A stretch of 36,377 nt of DNA from IMG/VR virus record IMGVR_UViG_3300003410_000016, positions 1,253-37,629 of that record; one strand, given 5' to 3'. Every line of letters begins with the position of its first letter. The first letter of the stretch is position 1. The position numbers were made by a program, and so were the translations under genes. Shown here piece by piece: positions 1 through 35,913 of this stretch. Source of the DNA: a virus. The notes below the pieces were generated by a model. That model saw only the letters and a program-made list of their open reading frames with translations. It was not told where the DNA came from and did not search any database.

Positions 1-453
1 TATACCTTACTAAATCTTACACAACTAGAAGACTGCATAGACGAACTTATTGGGTTTGATAATAAGTATTGCAGTCAGTTTAGAATTCGATGTGGCGTAG
101 ATATCGGAAGGTCTCCGGAAGATAACGAACAAGTGTTTTTAAGTGATTTGCTTAATGCTACAGAAGAAATTTGTAAATCTAAAGGATATACTTTTGAAAG
201 AGAGCCAGAATCAGGCAATAGAGCACATTATCCAGTAAGGATCAACGGCCTAGCTACTAAAATTATACAGTGGCCTAGTGCAGAAACACTAGACTTGAGC
301 GAAGTACAAACAGAAGCAATTGCAGATATATTACCTGGGCAGCCTCCGAGTCCGCTAGTACACCAAGTGTTACTTAGAGACGGCGCAATTAATAAAAGAC
401 TCCCACTACTAGATACAATACCAAAGGAATGGATAGACAATTATGGCAAATAG
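1..453 (+). CDS. Unrecognised protein, C-terminal part (cut by left edge)
   Basis: The reading frame is open from base 1, so the gene begins outside the window; a GTG at 133 is in frame, but the upstream codons continue as sensible protein (for example FDNKYCSQFRIRCGVDIG), so I do not take it as the start. About 150 residues are visible, ending IPKEWIDNYGK. I do not recognise the family, and no metal-binding or nucleotide-binding motif is evident. The end overlaps the start of the next gene by 11 bases, so it belongs to the rightward operon of 2OG-oxygenase-like genes, and a related role is possible but unproven. Confidence 0.7.
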   Translation, partial: YTLLNLTQLEDCIDELIGFDNKYCSQFRIRCGVDIGRSPEDNEQVFLSDLLNATEEICKSKGYTFEREPESGNRAHYPVRINGLATKIIQWPSAETLDLSEVQTEAIADILPGQPPSPLVHQVLLRDGAINKRLPLLDTIPKEWIDNYGK

Positions 454-1252
454 AGGAATTAACGGAACACCGTATTTTGATATGGAACAATATATCGATA
501 TGGAAGGATTTGAAAAGTTACAGCCTGAGATTGTAACAGGCTTCGCTCTAGCAAGAGAATATGCAAAAGAAGCAACTTGGATGACTCCTGGATTTACATT
601 TGAAAATATGAGCTATATTCATAATTGGAAACCTATATACCAAGCACTACAGGAATGGCAACAGTTGCCTGATGATGATCCAATTAAACAAGCTGGTGCA
701 AAAATTATGCCTCAAGACTTTAGTGATTATAAACAGCGTAATATCTTTACTCGTTTTCTAAAAATGGCAATGGGTGCATACGATCCTTACATTTATTATT
801 TCTTATGGGAGGAAGGTAGTTGGGATGACAGAACTGCTGAAAGAACATTAACCGAAGAAGCAAGGTATTTTCCTGAAACAGTCAAATGGGTTGAAGATTT
901 AATCGATCAAAAGATATTTAAACATATTGGCAGAGTTATTTTCTTCCATTGCGATGCAGACGGTATTCCATTCGAACACAGAGATTTGGATGCTAAGAAT
1001 GGTATGAACGAAAGCTTTCCACATAAAAACGAGTTTATACATATTCGTCCTAACACTAAAAAATCATTTTATATATGGGATCCTAAAACTAAGAATAAAA
1101 CATACTTAAATACTAGAGCTGCTTGGTGGAACGATCAAGACTGGCACGGCGGAGAGCGCATTATGGAACAAAGTTATGCATTACGCATTGACGGTGAGTT
1201 TACAGAAGAGTTTCGTAAAACGCTTGGCATTAACAATATAGAGAGTTATTAA
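443..1252 (+). CDS. 2OG-Fe(II) oxygenase-like protein (269 aa)
   Basis: The C-terminal half has the signature of a double-stranded beta-helix dioxygenase: an HxD iron motif at H179/D181 (PFEHRDLD), a distal His at H235 (DWHGGER) and an Arg at R248 suited to binding the 2-oxoglutarate carboxylate. Such enzymes hydroxylate or oxidise a substrate using Fe(II), O2 and 2-oxoglutarate. The N-terminal 160 residues are rich in aromatic and acidic residues and I do not recognise them; they may form a substrate-binding region. The start overlaps the previous gene, with AAAGGA some distance upstream. It is the longest of the seven related proteins here. The substrate is unknown. Confidence 0.75.
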   Translation: MANRGINGTPYFDMEQYIDMEGFEKLQPEIVTGFALAREYAKEATWMTPGFTFENMSYIHNWKPIYQALQEWQQLPDDDPIKQAGAKIMPQDFSDYKQRNIFTRFLKMAMGAYDPYIYYFLWEEGSWDDRTAERTLTEEARYFPETVKWVEDLIDQKIFKHIGRVIFFHCDADGIPFEHRDLDAKNGMNESFPHKNEFIHIRPNTKKSFYIWDPKTKNKTYLNTRAAWWNDQDWHGGERIMEQSYALRIDGEFTEEFRKTLGINNIESY

Positions 1253-1253
1253 T

Positions 1254-1862
1254 ATGAAAATGTATCAAAAATTAAATGTTCCAGAACTACCATTAATTCA
1301 AAAAGAGTTATTAGAATATATTAACAAATATCCCGATAATGTTTTTGACGAGACAGCGACATCAGAATATTGCCACTCAGTAGGTATAAAAGATTTTCCA
1401 ACTCTTAGCGGGTTTTTACTTCCGAGATTAAAACTGCCTTTACAATATACTAATATTTTGATTGTTCCGCCTGTGAGTAACTTTAACATTCATTTAGACG
1501 GGAACAACGAGTTACATCAAAAAGTTGTTATTACTATACCGATAAAAAATTATGAAGAGTCTGTAACACATTGGTATGATCATAAGGATATTAAAGAAGA
1601 ATATATTTGGTCTAAATTTTGTGCAAATGAGCAGCCGCCTTATAATGGATACACAATTAATTTTATTAAGGAAGAAATTGTTTTACAGCCTATTGCAAGT
1701 ACTACCGTCGACAGGATTACTTTAATGAGAGCTGACTGGTATCATGGCGTTGAAAATAGTATGAACGAAAATAGAATAGTAATAGTGATTAGGTGTGGAG
1801 ACACAATGATGGATGAAAATGTTAGTTTTGAAGATCTTATGGAGTTTCAAGATTTAATATGA
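1254..1862 (+). CDS. 2OG-Fe(II) oxygenase-like protein (202 aa)
   Basis: An HxD motif at H80/D82 (NIHLDG) is followed by a distal His at H164 (WYHGVEN) and an Arg at R174, the order and spacing expected of an Fe(II)/2-oxoglutarate dioxygenase of the aspartyl-hydroxylase-like type. The core strand after HxD (VVITIPI) is the usual hydrophobic strand of the jelly roll. It starts one base after the previous stop and its TGA overlaps the next ATG (ATGA), so translation is probably coupled. A second in-frame ATG lies two codons downstream. The substrate cannot be told from the sequence. Confidence 0.72.
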   Translation: MKMYQKLNVPELPLIQKELLEYINKYPDNVFDETATSEYCHSVGIKDFPTLSGFLLPRLKLPLQYTNILIVPPVSNFNIHLDGNNELHQKVVITIPIKNYEESVTHWYDHKDIKEEYIWSKFCANEQPPYNGYTINFIKEEIVLQPIASTTVDRITLMRADWYHGVENSMNENRIVIVIRCGDTMMDENVSFEDLMEFQDLI

Positions 1863-2356
1863 AATATTTAGGCAATTACGCAGACTGGATACAACCAGAA
1901 TGGATCGACTTTATAAAAGATAACGATGGCACATGTCGACCTGGAGGTGGCAGAAATCCTGACAGTGAAGAATTTAGAAAAGCAGCAGAACACGGATACG
2001 ATTTAACACAAACGTATTGGTATATTTACGAGCCCGATACGTTTCCGTTTGATGTTAAGTCGCCTATTCCGTTGGATGGTGAGTTTTTGTGGTGGTTTAT
2101 AAAAATGAATCCAGGTGATAAAATGCCAATGCATAAAGATCCGCATGCTCTTATAGAGAAAAATAGCAAACGCTATTGGATGGCATTACAAGACTACGAA
2201 CCAGGGCATGTGTTTATCTATGAAGATAAACTTGCAACAGGATACAAAAAAGGAGACTTATTTGTATATGACGATAGTAAAGCACTGCACGGTGCATGTA
2301 ATATAGGATGGAGCACAAGAATGATTGCATGTTTTAGCTCTTATGATCTGCAATGA
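1859..2356 (+). CDS. 2OG-Fe(II) oxygenase-like protein, tandem copy 1 (165 aa)
   Basis: A small single-domain protein with an HxD motif at H92/D94 (PMHKDPH), distal H144 (ALHGACNIG) and R154, all in the order expected for Fe(II)/2-oxoglutarate dioxygenases. It is clearly paralogous to the next gene: both start with M(K/N)Y(L/I)GNYADWI and share WWF(I/V)K, EPGH(V/I)F and HG(A/P)(C/A)NIG. The start sits in an ATGA overlap with the previous stop, and its own stop forms another ATGA with the following gene. Conservation of all catalytic positions suggests an active enzyme. Substrate unknown. Confidence 0.75.
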   Translation: MKYLGNYADWIQPEWIDFIKDNDGTCRPGGGRNPDSEEFRKAAEHGYDLTQTYWYIYEPDTFPFDVKSPIPLDGEFLWWFIKMNPGDKMPMHKDPHALIEKNSKRYWMALQDYEPGHVFIYEDKLATGYKKGDLFVYDDSKALHGACNIGWSTRMIACFSSYDLQ

Positions 2357-2384
2357 ATTATATAGGCAATTACGCAGATTGGAT
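1869..2384 (+). repeat. Direct repeat of 22 bases marking a tandem gene duplication
   Basis: Bases 1869-1890 and 2363-2384 differ at one position (GGCAATTACGCAGACTGG versus GGCAATTACGCAGATTGG in the core). They encode the shared GNYADWI near the N-termini of the two neighbouring oxygenase-like genes. The entry spans from the first to the second copy. Confidence 0.8.
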
Positions 2385-2877
2385 TAATGATAATAACATT
2401 ATAGAAATGTTAAACAGTAAACAAGGCGAGAAGACTCCAGTATGGCAACCTGATCGCTGGACAGGCAATGAAACATTAGAAAAGTTTAGAGAAATGGCAA
2501 GACCAGGATACTCAAATAATAAGTGTTTCTTCCATCAGCTTAACGCAGGATCTCCTGAAATGGAAGGATACAACTTTGTGTATCCTGATTTACCAGATAC
2601 TAGAGAATATCAGTTTTGGTGGTTTGTAAAACTATATCCTGGGGAATTTCAAGCAATGCATGTCGATCCGCATTTAACCGAGCTTACTAATTTTGTAAGA
2701 TATACTATGTTCTTACAAGATTGGGAACCTGGTCATATATTTGCGTATGATGACAAAATGCTGTCCAACTATAAGGCAGGCGATTTATACGAATGGAGTG
2801 ATCCTGAGTGCATACATGGGCCTGCTAACATAGGTTACAATCCAAGACTTACATTACAAATTACATTACACGATTAA
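2353..2877 (+). CDS. 2OG-Fe(II) oxygenase-like protein, tandem copy 2 (174 aa)
   Basis: Paralogue of the preceding gene, with iron ligands H103/D105 (AMHVDPH) and H155 (CIHGPANIG) and the co-substrate Arg at R165. The DNA at the start of both genes is still nearly identical over 22 bases, which points to tandem duplication. The gene ends on TTAA, the two stop codons of this gene and the convergent minus-strand gene overlapping in that palindrome; there is no room for a terminator between them. Likely an oxygenase acting in the same pathway as copy 1, perhaps on a related position. Substrate unknown. Confidence 0.75.
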   Translation: MNYIGNYADWINDNNIIEMLNSKQGEKTPVWQPDRWTGNETLEKFREMARPGYSNNKCFFHQLNAGSPEMEGYNFVYPDLPDTREYQFWWFVKLYPGEFQAMHVDPHLTELTNFVRYTMFLQDWEPGHIFAYDDKMLSNYKAGDLYEWSDPECIHGPANIGYNPRLTLQITLHD

Positions 2878-3557
2878 TATAATTTATTAAAAATCTCTGG
2901 GAATGGACAGTCAGGCCAACACTTCGGCAAGTGTACATTCATTGTAAGATTAAAGAAATTTCTGAGATCAATTACGCCGTCAGCTTCTGACTGATCAAAT
3001 CTATAAGAACCTTCGTCTCCAATCATGCCTGCAATTGATTTTCTTTCAATAAAATAATCGTCATGCGGCACAACTGAGTAATAATCAATAATTTTTAAAA
3101 TACCGTCTTTGTTTATAAAGAAACAATGTGGATAGAGTGCTAATTTATAATGTTTACTATTTTTAAATTCTTTTACAACACCATACAATCGATCCTTCCA
3201 ATCAGGAATTTCTTTATCAATTGACCTAGATGGATCAAATATTATTTGCGATAATGTTTCTGTGTTCCATTCTATAAAAACTTTATTATTAGCACGATCA
3301 ATTTCTAAAAGTTTAGGAGTGCAGCTTAAATGTTGTAGCTCTTCTAAAAAACGTACTTCTCTTTCAAAAAAGAAATCTATTATCTCTTGTGTCATTCCAG
3401 GCTGAGAGCCTTGATAATCTTCGTTAATACAATAGTGTTTGCATAAAATATCTTTATTTGGATTCATCAGAGCTGTGTATAACATATTAGATGACGCCGT
3501 TACAGCATCAGCTGTTCTTTTGTAATAATAATTCCAATTACTTGTATTCATAAACAT
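2874..3557 (-). CDS. Kinase-like fold protein, probably inactive (about 227 aa)
   Basis: The middle and C-terminal parts resemble small phosphotransferases of the protein-kinase/APH type: a segment EREVRFLEELQHLSCTPKLL looks like the helix that follows the lysine strand, and LYPHCFFINKDGILKIIDYY resembles a catalytic loop followed by the DFG strand. The usual catalytic Asp of the loop is not seen (Leu-Tyr-Pro-His in its place), though the IDY aspartate that would bind metal is kept. I therefore read it as a pseudokinase or diverged kinase, at moderate to low confidence. Starts at 3566, 3557 and 3551 are all in frame; 3557 is chosen because it mirrors the divergent gene's start. It lies inside the oxygenase cluster but on the opposite strand. 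Confidence 0.55.
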   Translation of the reverse strand: MFMNTSNWNYYYKRTADAVTASSNMLYTALMNPNKDILCKHYCINEDYQGSQPGMTQEIIDFFFEREVRFLEELQHLSCTPKLLEIDRANNKVFIEWNTETLSQIIFDPSRSIDKEIPDWKDRLYGVVKEFKNSKHYKLALYPHCFFINKDGILKIIDYYSVVPHDDYFIERKSIAGMIGDEGSYRFDQSEADGVIDLRNFFNLTMNVHLPKCWPDCPFPEIFNKLY

Positions 3558-3595
3558 ACTTATCATACATTTACAATCGATAAGTATGTTTATGA
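3548..3595. promoter_or_regulatory. Inverted repeat carrying mirrored late-promoter-like octamers at a divergent gene pair
   Basis: Bases 3548-3564 and 3579-3595 form a perfect 17-base inverted repeat (arm GATAAGTATGTTTATGA) around a 14-base spacer. Each arm, read outward, contains GATAAGTA, one mismatch from the T4/cyanophage late-promoter octamer NATAAATA, and the start codons ATGTTTATG. In both directions the last A of the octamer lies exactly six bases before the A of the second ATG (3551 on minus, 3592 on plus), where late transcripts would be expected to begin. This would give leaderless or near-leaderless mRNAs. The promoter role is inferred from position and similarity. Confidence 0.55.
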
Positions 3596-4191
3596 TACAT
3601 AAGTTAAATTTAAAATATAATATAGATGACGCTGTTGAATATTTTAATATATTAAAAACAGACTTTAATTATTTACACTGGGATTATTTGAAACATCATA
3701 ATCAACCGACATTTATTGATGCTAAAAATACAATTGATAGTGTTAATGGCTGGGGACTACAAACAATATACAACGATCCTACATTTCCGTATCACCCTGA
3801 TTTAGACCCGCATGACGAAGGTCCTGAATATTTTAAAGATACTCCAATGGTATTTGGATTCTTTAAGAGATTAAAAAATTTATTAAAACAGCCGTATCGG
3901 TCATTTTTATTTAATTATCCGCCTAACCAAAAATTAGGAAAATGGCATTCTCATAACCGAGACCATGTTACTATTGTAATTCCTATTATAACCAACGACA
4001 AAGTTTGTATAATTAGTCATCAAGAAAATATTCAAACCGTTGTACTAGAAGAAGGCAACGTATACTTATTAGATACAACAAAATACCCTGCTGAATTTCA
4101 AAACAATAGTCAAGGAGAAATAACTATAATAATTATTAGTGTTCTAATAGAATATAAGCAAGAAGTATTAGACATGATAGGAATCATATAA
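3586..4191 (+). CDS. 2OG-oxygenase-fold protein with altered active site (201 aa)
   Basis: The sequence FLFNYPPNQKLGKWHSHNRD followed by HVTIVIPI has the shape of the first iron-binding strands of an Fe(II)/2-oxoglutarate dioxygenase, but the motif is H121-S-H123 rather than HxD. The later strand that normally brings the distal His and the 2-oxoglutarate Arg reads PAEFQNNSQGEITIIIIS, with Glu at about 170 and 178 in those places. So at least three key positions are changed. It may be a non-catalytic partner, or use a different metal or co-substrate. The start at 3586 lies in the inverted repeat; ATG 3592 is the alternative. Its stop overlaps the next start (TAATG). Confidence 0.6.
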   Translation: MFMIHKLNLKYNIDDAVEYFNILKTDFNYLHWDYLKHHNQPTFIDAKNTIDSVNGWGLQTIYNDPTFPYHPDLDPHDEGPEYFKDTPMVFGFFKRLKNLLKQPYRSFLFNYPPNQKLGKWHSHNRDHVTIVIPIITNDKVCIISHQENIQTVVLEEGNVYLLDTTKYPAEFQNNSQGEITIIIISVLIEYKQEVLDMIGII

Positions 4192-4778
4192 TGGATAATC
4201 CTGGCGCAGCCTACGACAGAAGATTACTAACTTTAAAAAGTTGTGCGTTTCTAAATGCATATAGACGCATAAATTTAAAAGAATTAACCGAATCATTAAA
4301 GGACAAACAAGGCTCAGATGTTACCACTGAGCCAAGCCGCTGGAACTTAGATAATAGCGACTATGGAAAAATACATGCTATTTGGAAAGAAGCTAATTTT
4401 AATTCTTCTGCTATGAAGTGGACAAACTACTATCCTGGAGGAGAGTTCTCACAGGAGTTTGTCGATGATGTTGCATTTTATTTACGATTAAAAGGTGTGC
4501 ATCGCGCTTGGATTAGCAGAGTTGATCCCGGATACTATGCTCCGTGGCATTGGGACGTCGATGATAATGAACAGGAATATTTAAAGTATGGTGAGATTAA
4601 ACGCTACAGTATTATGATGGGAGATAAAACTCCCGGACATATTTTTATGCTAGGGGAAGATTATTTGTACGACTGTGTTCAAGGATCAATATTTCGTTGG
4701 AATAATCATAACGAGTGGCACAGTGGCATTAATGCAGGTATGACTCCAAAGTTTATGTTTCACATAATCGGATATTAA
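4191..4778 (+). CDS. 2OG-Fe(II) oxygenase-like protein (195 aa), Arg replaced by Lys
   Basis: Iron ligands are evident: H120/D122 (PWHWDVDD) and H177 (EWHSGINAG). The position ten residues after the distal His, which is Arg in the tandem paralogues at 1859 and 2353, is Lys (K187, MTPKFMF), so binding of 2-oxoglutarate may differ, though Lys can serve the same charge role in some relatives. The PGHIF segment matches the tandem paralogues. It follows the altered oxygenase-fold gene with a one-base overlap, so the two are probably co-translated and could act as a pair. The stop is shared in a TTAA palindrome with the convergent radical SAM gene. Confidence 0.7.
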   Translation: MDNPGAAYDRRLLTLKSCAFLNAYRRINLKELTESLKDKQGSDVTTEPSRWNLDNSDYGKIHAIWKEANFNSSAMKWTNYYPGGEFSQEFVDDVAFYLRLKGVHRAWISRVDPGYYAPWHWDVDDNEQEYLKYGEIKRYSIMMGDKTPGHIFMLGEDYLYDCVQGSIFRWNNHNEWHSGINAGMTPKFMFHIIGY

Positions 4779-6319
4779 TTACTAGTTGACCAACTTAGTT
4801 TTTTATTAATATAATTTTGTACAAAAGTTTTAAACTTAGGATCGTTAGTATCTGTTTGTGACATATTTATATCGTAAATATCTTCATATCGTTCTGCTTC
4901 TGTTAGAACAAATAATCTATCTGATAAGAATGGATTGCAGCCTCGAAGTCCAGTAAAGCCGTTATCTGAATAAAACTCTTGAACTAAACTTTCTGCTTCA
5001 TACCAATTCATAGTGTCGTGATCCCAAATAACAATATCGTTTCTAGTGCTGCCAACGCCGCCTCCTCGAGGAGTAGTAGACTGGAATACTACATTGTTAT
5101 TTTTATCTTTGTATACATTGTAACCTTCGTTTTGTCGTGCTTCTAATTTTACAAGTCCGTTATCAGTTAGTTGCTTTGTAAATCTACTTTGATTAGTAAG
5201 ACTTAGATCATAATCACCAATTTCTAATATGTGAGCACTTGCACTTTGTCTATTCCATTTAGTGTTTAACCAATTAACTGAATCGTACCATGACTCTTTT
5301 GTTTCTCCGGGAATGCCGCAGATAAGTTGTATATTTGCTCGATACCTTTTAGGAGCATGTATATCTGTGTATGCTTGAAATTCTAATAGACCTTCTTTTA
5401 CTTGATCGGGGTCCATGCCTTTACGCACAAGCTTTCCTGCTTCTTGATTGAATGTTTCAAGACCCATGCTATGCCCAAGAAAGCCTAATCTAATGTAAGT
5501 ATCCCAGTGCTCTTTGTGTTTAACAACTAAATCTCCGCGGGCAAACCCGCACATCCAAGGATTATAATTTAACTCGTCTACTGCTTCAGCATATTTTTGT
5601 AATTTTGACGGACGATCATTAAACGTTTCGTCCATAACTCGCCAGTTTTTAATTCCCCATTTTTCATATCCAGTCTGTAGCTGACGCTTAAACTCTTCTT
5701 TGCTTACACTAACATCTTTAGCTTGACCTAACAATGGAAAATTACAATAGCTGCAATTAAACATACATCCTCGTGCAGTTTCAATTTGCGGCATTTCATA
5801 AGGTTTTATAAAATCTCTAGCTTCGTAATCAGTTAAGTAGCTGTCTAATGGCGTAGAAGGATAATGATGCAATCCTCTAATAACACGTTTATCGGTAATA
5901 ACTGTATCAGTTTTTAAAGGCGCACCTAAAGTGCCAATTAAATGTCTGCATAAAGCTAATACTGCATTTTCTCCGTAACTGTCTACCCAATAGTCAACGT
6001 TCTCAGCCGGAGTAACAAGAGCATTTTGTCCTCCTACTACAACAGGTATATCAGGATATTCTTTTTTTAACCAAGCAATAAATTCATTTAAAAACGGGCT
6101 CCATGGATTTAAAAATGCAGTTCCAAAACAAAACATAACAGTACTCGACGATGCACGAGAACGTACAAATTCTTGTAATTCTTCTAGTTTCCAAAATGCA
6201 GTAAAGTCTACTACTTCTGCATCCCAGTCGTGCATCCTTAAATACGTAGCAACTCGATGAGGCCATATGGATCTCTCCCATCGTTTACCAGTAAGTGAAA
6301 AGAATATTACATTATTCAT
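4775..6319 (-). CDS. B12-binding-type radical SAM protein (514 aa)
   Basis: The N-terminal 150 residues have the layout of a cobalamin-binding Rossmann domain (IFFSLTGKRWERSIWPHRVA, then VVVGGQNALVTPAENVDYWV), as in B12-dependent radical SAM methyltransferases and BchE/HpnP-like enzymes. The radical SAM cluster motif CxxxCxxC is C185/C189/C192 (RGCMFNCSYC), with GIPGETKESW later in the barrel. No DxHxxG cobalamin ligand motif is evident, so B12 may bind base-off or the domain may be degenerate. About 120 C-terminal residues are unassigned. Such enzymes methylate or rearrange unactivated carbons. The start overlaps the upstream minus-strand gene as ATGA. Confidence 0.8.
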   Translation of the reverse strand: MNNVIFFSLTGKRWERSIWPHRVATYLRMHDWDAEVVDFTAFWKLEELQEFVRSRASSSTVMFCFGTAFLNPWSPFLNEFIAWLKKEYPDIPVVVGGQNALVTPAENVDYWVDSYGENAVLALCRHLIGTLGAPLKTDTVITDKRVIRGLHHYPSTPLDSYLTDYEARDFIKPYEMPQIETARGCMFNCSYCNFPLLGQAKDVSVSKEEFKRQLQTGYEKWGIKNWRVMDETFNDRPSKLQKYAEAVDELNYNPWMCGFARGDLVVKHKEHWDTYIRLGFLGHSMGLETFNQEAGKLVRKGMDPDQVKEGLLEFQAYTDIHAPKRYRANIQLICGIPGETKESWYDSVNWLNTKWNRQSASAHILEIGDYDLSLTNQSRFTKQLTDNGLVKLEARQNEGYNVYKDKNNNVVFQSTTPRGGGVGSTRNDIVIWDHDTMNWYEAESLVQEFYSDNGFTGLRGCNPFLSDRLFVLTEAERYEDIYDINMSQTDTNDPKFKTFVQNYINKKLSWSTSN

Positions 6320-6969
6320 ATATTGCTCTCAAATTTAAATTCGTTAGGAACTATAGATTTTAATTCTTCTAACGATGACTGTTCTACATCAAAATAAACC
6401 GATGTTTCAGATTGTTTAAAATTACTTATAGTTTTATTTTTAGACGCACGGTTTAACCAAACACTCATAGTATTATCAAAACTATACCTAGGATTGCTGC
6501 CGCCGGCTGTTATTTTTACAGACACAGAATCATTTAATACATTGCGTGTTAATAATTTTCGAACTACTAGCTGCATCCGAGTATGCTCGCCTACACTAAT
6601 TGCAGTGTGCAATCTTCCTGCATCCATTTCGTACCATACTCCGTCTTTTACAAGTTTATGCATTTGTTGATTATCAAGATCAATAAGGTAGTCTTGATCT
6701 CCTGACAAATTTAAATGATACCTATCGTCGATGTCAGCATGTTGTGTGTAACAACTAGGCGACTCCATTACAATAATTCTTGCTTGTCCAGTGTCAATAG
6801 GAAGGCTATTCCAAATACTTTCCCACACTGTGTTTTTATATTCTTCTAATAATACCCAAGGATCATAAAAAAAGTCTCCAGAAGGTGCTGTTAAATCGTG
6901 CTTTCCTTTTTCAAGTAATGGCATGTCATCAATAGATGCAGTATATGGTGTTTTAACAAGCATATGCAT
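6316..6969 (-). CDS. 2OG-Fe(II) oxygenase-like protein with extra C-terminal segment (about 217 aa)
   Basis: From the ATG at 6969, the iron-binding HxD is H77/D79 (YTQHADIDD), the distal His is H121 (GRLHTAISVG) and the 2-oxoglutarate Arg is R131. The catalytic part ends near residue 140; about 75 further residues are not part of the usual fold and are unassigned. A longer frame begins at TTG 6978, but ATG 6969 or 6963 is more credible, and 6963 sits six bases after a late-promoter-like octamer. Translation is coupled to the B12-type radical SAM gene by an ATGA overlap, so the two may act on the same substrate. Confidence 0.72.
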   Translation of the reverse strand: MHMLVKTPYTASIDDMPLLEKGKHDLTAPSGDFFYDPWVLLEEYKNTVWESIWNSLPIDTGQARIIVMESPSCYTQHADIDDRYHLNLSGDQDYLIDLDNQQMHKLVKDGVWYEMDAGRLHTAISVGEHTRMQLVVRKLLTRNVLNDSVSVKITAGGSNPRYSFDNTMSVWLNRASKNKTISNFKQSETSVYFDVEQSSLEELKSIVPNEFKFESNI

Positions 6970-7013
6970 ATTTACCAAGACTAAGTTAACTACGCATATT
7001 TCTTGGTAAATAT
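6968..7013. promoter_or_regulatory. Second inverted repeat with mirrored late-promoter-like octamers at a divergent gene pair
   Basis: Bases 6968-6980 and 7001-7013 are a perfect 13-base inverted repeat (arm TCTTGGTAAATAT) around a 20-base spacer. Each arm contains GGTAAATA, one mismatch from NATAAATA, and in both directions the last A of this octamer is six bases before the A of an ATG (6963 on minus, 7018 on plus). The same geometry is found at the repeat around 3548-3595 although the arm sequences differ. I infer two back-to-back late-type promoters giving leaderless messages. Confidence 0.55.
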
Positions 7014-7017
7014 CATT

Positions 7018-7695
7018 ATGAATCTAACTATAGATAAAAAATGGAAGCGTATAGGCATTAGTTTAAGCGGGGGTGCTGATAGTGCATTGCTTGCATATCT
7101 TGTATTGTCACAAACCAATGCCGACATATATTTTACTACACAAATACGCTTATGGAAAACTAGGCCGTGGCAACGTTATATTGCACAGGAAGTAGTAGAA
7201 TGGTTCCGTAATCGTTTTGATAATCGTATAGAGCACATAGAAGGGTTTATTCCGCCCGAAATGGAAGAACCGCATACAACGTATATTACAGACGAGTACG
7301 AAAAAACAAAACCAGGTAACAGAATTATACTTAGAGCACATAACGAGTTTATTGCACATACACATAAGTTGGATGCGTGGTTTGCAGGTGTTAACAAAAA
7401 TCCAGACATAGATATTCCAGGTGCATTAGCAGAACGTAACGAAGGTGTGTTGCCATTACACACTACACATATGGGAGTTGACATTTGTCATCCTTTCGTG
7501 TATACTACTAAAGACTGGATCATTAAACAATACTATGATAACAACATAGAAGATTTATTAAATTTAACACGTAGCTGCGAAGGAGAATTTGCAGAGTTAG
7601 ATTATACAACATACACACCTAGGCAATTTGTTCCTATATGCAATGAATGTTTTTGGTGTAAGGAAAGAGAGTGGGCTATTGAACAAGTCAAATAG
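7018..7695 (+). CDS. PP-loop ATP pyrophosphatase, QueC-like (225 aa)
   Basis: The N-terminus carries the PP-loop SLSGGADSALLAYL (SGGxDS at residues 17-22), which binds ATP and activates a carboxyl or carbonyl by adenylation. The C-terminus has TRSCEG followed by CNECFWCKERE, a Cys cluster like the zinc site of QueC (7-cyano-7-deazaguanine synthase); the length also matches QueC. Without its QueD/QueE/FolE partners here I would not call it preQ0 synthesis; ATP-dependent amidation, ligation or thiolation in the neighbouring pathway is as likely. The ATG at 7018 is chosen over TTG 7003, which lies inside the inverted repeat. The next gene starts within its last codons. Confidence 0.75.
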   Translation: MNLTIDKKWKRIGISLSGGADSALLAYLVLSQTNADIYFTTQIRLWKTRPWQRYIAQEVVEWFRNRFDNRIEHIEGFIPPEMEEPHTTYITDEYEKTKPGNRIILRAHNEFIAHTHKLDAWFAGVNKNPDIDIPGALAERNEGVLPLHTTHMGVDICHPFVYTTKDWIIKQYYDNNIEDLLNLTRSCEGEFAELDYTTYTPRQFVPICNECFWCKEREWAIEQVK

Positions 7696-28791: not shown

Positions 28792-28799
28792 TATTTATT
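28792..28799 (-). promoter_or_regulatory. Late-promoter octamer AATAAATA
   Basis: AATAAATA on the minus strand matches the NATAAATA late-promoter motif of T4-like phages. It lies in the gap between two structural genes. A start about six bases downstream would give a 19-base leader before ATG 28767, with an AAAGAGA ribosome-binding site. Confidence 0.55.
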
Positions 28800-31273: not shown

Positions 31274-31281
31274 TATTTATC
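31274..31281 (-). promoter_or_regulatory. Late-promoter octamer GATAAATA
   Basis: GATAAATA on the minus strand fits NATAAATA exactly. It is in the 39-base gap between two fibre genes and is spaced for a leader of about 22 bases before ATG 31246. Confidence 0.58.
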
Positions 31282-35283: not shown

Positions 35284-35886
35284 TTAACCTGCTAAACTTT
35301 GTACACGCACTGTGTAATCAATCTGAATTAATCTGTTGAGTGACTTTTGTACTGGATGGAAAATAACATGAGTAATTAATCTGCCTGTACCGCTTGTACT
35401 ATAACTGCGCAATCCTAATTCGTCAAATACATACGGACTGTCGGTTGCACTTGCAGTATCAAATGCATCTTGTCCATTTGGCTCTCCGTAATCTAACAAA
35501 CAACTTACAACAATATCAGTATAGTTAGTACCACTTACATGACGTGTTTCTAATTTATTACGTGCAGGATCAGTATTATTCACACTTCTATCATCAACAA
35601 CTTTGGTATAGGTTTGGTTGTATAGACTTGCATTTGTGCCTGTGCTGTTAGGTGTTAGGTATGTAATAATACCTGTTGGGTCAACACTTGTGCCGCCGTT
35701 GCCAAAACTCATTTCATATATAAATCCTTGCCCAGCATTACTTAAACTCTCTGCAAGTGCAAGACTCATATTTTCATAATGAATTGCATTGCGCTTGTCA
35801 ATATATACTTTTTGTGACTCGGGATCGAATATTTTGATATGTCCCTGAACCAATACTCCATTTGTGTCTTGCATGTTATCGCTCAT
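35284..35886 (-). CDS. Virion structural protein (200 aa)
   Basis: The protein starts MSDNMQDTNGVLVQGHIKIF and includes RNAIHYENMSLALAESLSNA, then a Gly/Asn/Thr-rich beta region and a C-terminal LNRLIQIDYTVRVQSL. No enzymatic motif is visible. It lies between a partial structural gene and the tail-collar fibre gene on the same strand, so a baseplate, tail or fibre-attachment role is likely, but I cannot name it. A late octamer and a GGAAA ribosome-binding site precede ATG 35886. Confidence 0.68.
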   Translation of the reverse strand: MSDNMQDTNGVLVQGHIKIFDPESQKVYIDKRNAIHYENMSLALAESLSNAGQGFIYEMSFGNGGTSVDPTGIITYLTPNSTGTNASLYNQTYTKVVDDRSVNNTDPARNKLETRHVSGTNYTDIVVSCLLDYGEPNGQDAFDTASATDSPYVFDELGLRSYSTSGTGRLITHVIFHPVQKSLNRLIQIDYTVRVQSLAG

Positions 35887-35905: not shown

Positions 35906-35913
35906 TATTTATT
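35906..35913 (-). promoter_or_regulatory. Late-promoter octamer AATAAATA
   Basis: AATAAATA on the minus strand overlaps the TAA stop of the upstream gene (35909-35911). The predicted leader before ATG 35886 is about 14 bases and contains GGAAA. It is the first octamer of the structural gene run in this window. Confidence 0.57.

Follow-up and report, generated by a model that had tools for sequence, protein, structure and literature searches.

Inverted repeats between divergent genes of an uncultivated aquatic virus read as paired T4-type late promoters joined to start codons, with predicted leaderless late mRNAs

What is the role of a short, perfect inverted repeat that lies between two divergent genes and carries, in each direction, an octamer immediately before a start codon? 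The window, by which the whole 36,377-nt stretch analyzed here is meant, is part of a 37.6-kb virus record and contains two such repeats. The first-pass annotation had described the second as a further inverted repeat with an octamer just before an ATG in both directions, had counted four starts of common geometry across both repeats and had proposed late-type promoters giving leaderless messages. The elements concerned are the following.

6968..6980, minus strand: left arm of the second inverted repeat, ATATTTACCAAGA, which reads TCTTGGTAAATAT on the minus strand
6969..6976, minus strand: late-type octamer GGTAAATA, predicted -13 to -6 of the minus-strand promoter, retained in relatives
6961..6963, minus strand: ATG, predicted +1 of a leaderless mRNA, with the octamer 5 bases before it; M1 is invariant in homologues
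7001..7013, plus strand: right arm of the second inverted repeat, TCTTGGTAAATAT
7005..7012, plus strand: late-type octamer GGTAAATA, predicted -13 to -6 of the plus-strand promoter, retained in relatives
7018..7020, plus strand: ATG, predicted +1 of a leaderless mRNA, with the octamer 5 bases before it
3548..3564, minus strand: left arm of the first inverted repeat, with octamer GATAAGTA at 3564-3557 and ATG at 3551-3549
3579..3595, plus strand: right arm of the first inverted repeat, with octamer GATAAGTA at 3579-3586 and ATG at 3592-3594

The arms of the second repeat are perfect 13-bp reverse complements, and the five bases between octamer and ATG are TGCAT on the minus and TCATT on the plus strand. 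The first repeat (3548-3595) has perfect 17-bp arms and TGTTT between octamer and ATG on both sides, so that the two repeats present one geometry in different letters. The observation of the annotation holds: the mirrored octamer-ATG motif occurs twice in the window and in none of 300 dinucleotide-preserving shuffles, and perfect 13-bp inverted repeats with loops of at most 25 occupy 6 positions (shuffle mean 0.025), a number that fits these two repeats. The octamers of a pair are separated by 14 bp and 28 bp, with predicted starts 41 and 55 bp apart. In T4, the late octamer starts at -13 and spans -13 to -6 (PMC2988020); with a gap of 5, the predicted +1 falls on the A of the ATG.

Four genes flank the repeats.

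6316..6963, minus strand: 215-aa protein of family F0, with a 2OG-Fe(II)-type pattern HxD..H..R; relatives match PF05118 weakly, below the cut-off
7018..7695, plus strand: 225-aa PP-loop / QueC-like protein of family F1 (phrog_1550, E 2.8e-8)
2874..3551, minus strand: 225-aa protein of family F3, no function assigned, leaderless start predicted at 3551
3592..4191, plus strand: 199-aa protein of family F6, no function assigned, located between the promoter and an F4-like gene; in L348 it is likewise divergent from F3

Judging from its motif and the weak match of relatives to the aspartyl/asparaginyl hydroxylase model PF05118, the 6316-6963 product is probably 2OG-Fe(II) hydroxylase-like. The F4-like gene lies at 4191-4778 (likeness by eye), and the window also holds radical-SAM genes, sugar-modifying genes and tail-fibre-like genes. 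The small-protein cluster at 443-4778, one member of which has a weak Asp/Asn hydroxylase match, adjoins radical-SAM/SPASM, B12-binding radical-SAM and PP-loop genes and resembles an island for the modification of peptides or proteins. No isolate carrying the PP-loop gene was found in the phage collection searched. The relatives of the virion-side gene 35284-35886 are all distant (<60% identity) and belong mostly to T4-like jumbo phages, e.g. Atu_ph07, Phosso and 121Q.

A different arrangement is found at virion genes, where the octamer stands further from the ATG.

35906..35913, minus strand: leadered late octamer AATAAATA, 19 bases to ATG 35886 (phrog_11259 gene), predicted leader 14 nt
31274..31281, minus strand: leadered late octamer GATAAATA, 27 bases to ATG 31246 (tail-fibre-like gene), predicted leader 22 nt
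28792..28799, minus strand: leadered late octamer AATAAATA, 24 bases to ATG 28767, predicted leader 19 nt

The contrast drawn by the annotation with octamers that leave leaders before structural genes was thus borne out, the predicted leaders of 14, 22 and 19 nt containing purine-rich stretches.

The geometry is conserved in relatives. A search with the PP-loop protein returned 80 loci with about 45 distinct upstream sequences, most of which retain an octamer followed by 4-5 nt and an ATG. The letters of the octamer vary among them (GGTAAATA, CATAAATA, AATAAGTA, GATAAGTA and CTTAAATA), as do the remaining arm letters. In several of the relatives that lack this geometry the gene follows close behind another reading frame, an operon-like arrangement by eye.

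For a genome-wide view, six large related contigs (G001-G006, 115-186 kb, read piecewise) were combined with the window, and a histogram was made of the distances between NNTAARTA octamers and the in-frame ATGs that open called ORFs, with start codons picked by rule and the contigs being incomplete. Gaps of 4-5 account for 47 octamers, distributed over 25 protein families where 5.0 are expected. Three zones appear: a sharp maximum at 4-5, seen in G001-G005 and the window, a depleted range at 8-15 and a broad second increase at 16-31, the leadered class; in G006 the 4-5 peak is not significant (2 vs 0.8 expected). At gaps of 8-15 a leader would measure about 3-10 nt and could not accommodate a ribosome-binding site, and depletion of these gaps is expected if transcripts are either leaderless or properly leadered. 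An unbiased hexamer/offset scan of 1714 partly redundant start contexts placed TAAGTA at -11 at the top of all pairs, with TAAATA at -11 and -10 also high, and listed Shine-Dalgarno hexamers (AGGAGA at -11/-12) as well. A Shine-Dalgarno-like motif precedes 4% of the genes in the 4-5 class, 68% of the leadered class and 43% of other genes, although its absence from the 4-5 class is partly forced, as the octamer fills -13 to -6 by construction. The fixed octamer-ATG spacing for which the annotation had proposed a motif scan is therefore enriched genome-wide, but only the ORF-based histogram separates the clade from other phages: raw TAARTA-N5-ATG counts taken outside ORF context do not. The two octamer classes also differ slightly in their letters (gap 4-5 vs leadered: G at -13 in 61% vs 32%, G at -8 in 24% vs 9%; G001-G006 and the window), so that a different factor is possible. 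The six large contigs contain a single tRNA, a tRNA-Asn.

The same histogram was applied to phage isolates. The Pelagibacter phage HTVC008M shows a strong 4-5 peak (10 vs 1.1 expected, P 3e-7) and Mosig a weak one (5 vs 1.35, P 0.012); the peak is absent in T4, Atu_ph07, 121Q, Syn9 and phiM12, and not significant in P-SSM2 (3 vs 1.25). In one annotated stretch of HTVC008M, five deposited gene starts (6280, 7562, 16007-, 18916- and 18943) coincide with predicted leaderless ATGs, and two of these, at the genes for DNA end protector (18916-) and head closure (18943+), are divergent, with ATGs 27 bp apart. The three starts checked in Mosig (92381-, 92996- and 94129) agree as well. In IMG/VR, a scan for mirrored octamers with 5-nt gaps returned 80 stretches, and in 37 of the 49 distinct ones both ORFs are open for 60+ codons; across the scans with 5-base gaps this holds for 75-79% of distinct matches, compared with 0/14 at gaps of 9 nt (16 stretches). 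The layout is shared by an uncultivated group of aquatic viruses and by Pelagibacter phages but not by T4, and it suggests a compact and largely unnoticed mode of late gene expression in phages. In the open literature searched no description of T4-type late promoters fused to ATGs was found, which is not proof of absence. A phage-encoded ribosomal protein S21 (PF01165) was considered as the cause of leaderless translation and rejected: it is present in HTVC008M but also in Atu_ph07, which has no peak, and in Phosso, and this model gave nothing over the cut-off in G001-G010.

Relatives of the T4 late sigma factor gp55 are encoded by 10 of the 16 related contigs searched; a 275-aa protein of G001 matches the late sigma factor family phrog_12791 at E 6.9e-77 and phrog_234 at E 9.6e-24. 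The gene is absent from the window's own 37.6-kb fragment. Models for gp33 (PF16805) and gp45 (PF09116) gave nothing above the cut-off in the incomplete contigs G001-G006; PF09116 also misses the jumbo isolates 121Q, Atu_ph07 and Phosso, so that the gp45 model may be too narrow. Compared with the T4 late system (TATAAATA, gp55/gp33/gp45), the shared features are an 8-bp TATA-like octamer with no obvious -35 element, its use at virion genes and a gp55-like factor, here encoded by relatives. NNTAARTA is enriched at a fixed offset, although GGTAAATA and GATAAGTA deviate from the strict consensus. The differences are that gp33 and gp45 are not detected here with Pfam models and that in T4 the 4-5 gap is at background (1 case in 246 ORFs, 1.25 expected), whereas here it forms a large class, predicting leaderless mRNAs.

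It is in our judgment likely that both arms represent complete T4-type late promoters joined directly to start codons, served by a gp55-like factor and giving leaderless late mRNAs for both divergent genes, with the likeness of the arms arising by template switching. A gp55-like sigma factor on host RNA polymerase would recognize the octamer NNTAARTA at -13 to -6, and RNA would start at the A of the ATG or one base from it. Because the octamer occupies the Shine-Dalgarno position, these genes could not use such a site. The proposal of late-type promoters giving leaderless messages is thereby supported by the enrichment of the 4-5 gap, the first rank of TAAGTA at -11 and the gp55-like factor of relatives. 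Leaderless genes with an ORF-adjacent -10, known from Deinococcus-Thermus and others, offer a close bacterial likeness (PMC12340547, PMC3160421). They share a -10-like element whose short distance to the start codon is fixed, seen here as the 4-5 peak, and the lack of a Shine-Dalgarno motif; the present genes differ in using a phage late octamer, in a presumed phage sigma factor in place of the host housekeeping factor and in their frequent arrangement as mirror-image divergent pairs.

In a first alternative reading, the elements are host sigma-70-type leaderless promoters, with a TANNNT-like -10 located 6-7 bases before the ATG as in Deinococcus, active early and not as gp55-dependent late promoters. 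A -10 element directly before an ATG is a known leaderless layout (PMC12340547), and one of the spacing classes places the hexamer of the other strand 17-19 bp upstream, where a -35 element would usually be (17 bp optimum, PMC12825309). However, the motif is the late octamer TAARTA, found before leadered virion genes as well, and a gp55 homologue is encoded. The genes starting in this way include a baseplate wedge (phrog_261/43) and a virion protein (phrog_11591) among the structural genes of the 4-5 class and, in HTVC008M, those for DNA end protector and head closure. This reading is therefore considered unlikely.

A second alternative takes the palindrome as an operator for a dimeric regulator or as an RNA/DNA hairpin, with the resemblance to the octamer being secondary. 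It draws on the perfection of the arms, on the 17-19 bp class, whose arms are more alike than a shared motif needs, and on the arms of the first repeat, which changed in concert (both TGTTT in the window, both TAGTT in L004). Across relatives, however, only the octamer and its distance to the ATG persist, while the outer arm bases vary or are asymmetric (L031, L042, L056); unpaired single octamers show the 4-5 nt gap too, and the promoter-to-promoter spacing varies in classes. An operator or hairpin thus appears decidedly improbable, and the best interpretation of the inverted repeat is a pair of divergent promoters, the symmetry following from the use of an identical promoter in both directions. 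Bacterial bidirectional promoters likewise initiate symmetrically and divergently from a very short segment, but they share one -10, and the distance between their starts is typically 18, 10 or 23 bp (Warman et al., PMC12825309), while two octamers are present at each repeat here and the predicted starts lie 27-28, 39-41 or 54-55 bp apart.

In-frame start codons further upstream (TTG 7003, ATG 6969, which overlaps the octamer, and ATGs 3566, 3557 and 3586) would lead an ORF caller to place these starts upstream and allow a third reading, in which they are the true starts and the octamers are chance occurrences within 5' coding sequence, but this is very improbable given an enrichment specific to gaps of 4-5 with depletion at 8-15, the alignment of F0 homologues from an invariant M1 at the gap-5 ATG, which favors that ATG as the start of the 6963 gene, and the coincident deposited starts of HTVC008M and Mosig.

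If each arm is a late promoter, the likeness of the arms beyond the octamer still calls for an explanation. In the 17-19 bp class the arms differ at 2.5 of 6 positions, against 3.3 +/- 0.17 for between-family pairings, and 0 of 400 shuffles are as low. The spacer of the first repeat is also informative.

3565..3578, no strand: 14-bp spacer of the first repeat, ATACATTTACAATC, exactly inverted in the close relative L004/L357 (L004 7100-7240)

Among relatives with the F4 and F3 genes, the spacer of L350 is GCTTGTAAATGTAT, and that of L357 (the contig of L004) is ATACATTTACAATC, the inverse of the former save one base, between perfect arms. The window spacer, GATTGTAAATGTAT beside F6, is the exact inverse of that of L357, the F3 gene lying beside the spacer in both; the L357 inversion is carried by one metagenome contig. 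A second, weaker spacer inversion is seen in L622 relative to L623 and L667. Homogenized arms together with an inverted spacer have been published as the mark of template switching at short inverted repeats (PMC8604942), and arm-to-arm switching (quasi-palindrome correction) would produce both arm identity beyond the motif and the inversion of the spacer. On this comparison of sequences, such switching best explains the likeness of the arms beyond the octamer. The present case differs from those of PMC8604942 in that the arms are presumptive functional promoters, that the shared promoter motif seeds the symmetry and that inversion leaves gene polarity unaltered. The arrangement does not fit an invertible, phase-variable promoter in which inversion switches flanking expression, as the segment is promoter-symmetric and both octamers and ATGs stay in place.

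The genes joined to these promoters vary. F0 is paired with F1, F2 or F4; F3 with F2, F4 or F6; and F5 with F2, F4, F8, F10 or F11. The loci L348 and L349 share an identical promoter upstream of position 4001 and carry F6 or F4, respectively, directly at the ATG (the F4 side of L349 read from sequence), as would result from the insertion or removal of a gene precisely where promoter and ATG meet. From these pairings, genes are evidently swapped at these promoters. Divergent pairs of the clade (L003-L082 and L216-L264, with different gene pairs) have hexamer spacings of 4-5, 17-19 or 32 bp with almost nothing between, the 32-bp class being essentially a single gene pair; 17-19 bp is also the usual -35/-10 distance. 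Quantized spacing as a universal rule was rejected, as in other viruses an IMG/VR control scan at 12 bp returned 37 pairs in which both ORFs are open, which makes discrete spacing a feature of the clade or of gene pairs and not a general constraint. These mirror-image promoter-ATG pairs at 12 bp (L359-L438) belong to other IMG/VR viral groups and include several from repeated gene pairs (e.g. MGKKFD.. / MKFDKL..). A tentative, and on balance doubtful, extension is that ATG-fused late promoters act as plug-in joints for leader-free gene exchange guided by short promoter-to-promoter homology, through which the accessory genes of the phage, among them the 2OG-Fe hydroxylase-like and PP-loop genes, would be reassorted around divergent promoters of few discrete lengths. 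Promoter, transcription start and start codon would then form one block of about 16 bp, and genes could be swapped without rebuilding a leader.

For pelagimyophages, late-promoter prediction with methods developed for cyanophages was reported to be 'unsuccessful in PMP genomes' (PMC7029224), and it is possible that promoters abutting the ATG, missed by such a method, are the reason. A class of leaderless late genes whose 5' ends are exactly defined is predicted here, and cultured Pelagibacter phages would allow the prediction to be tested. Start codons in such genomes could also be corrected by the rule that the geometry supplies, and the repeats may represent a natural case in which promoter symmetry seeds inverted repeats that then homogenize and flip.
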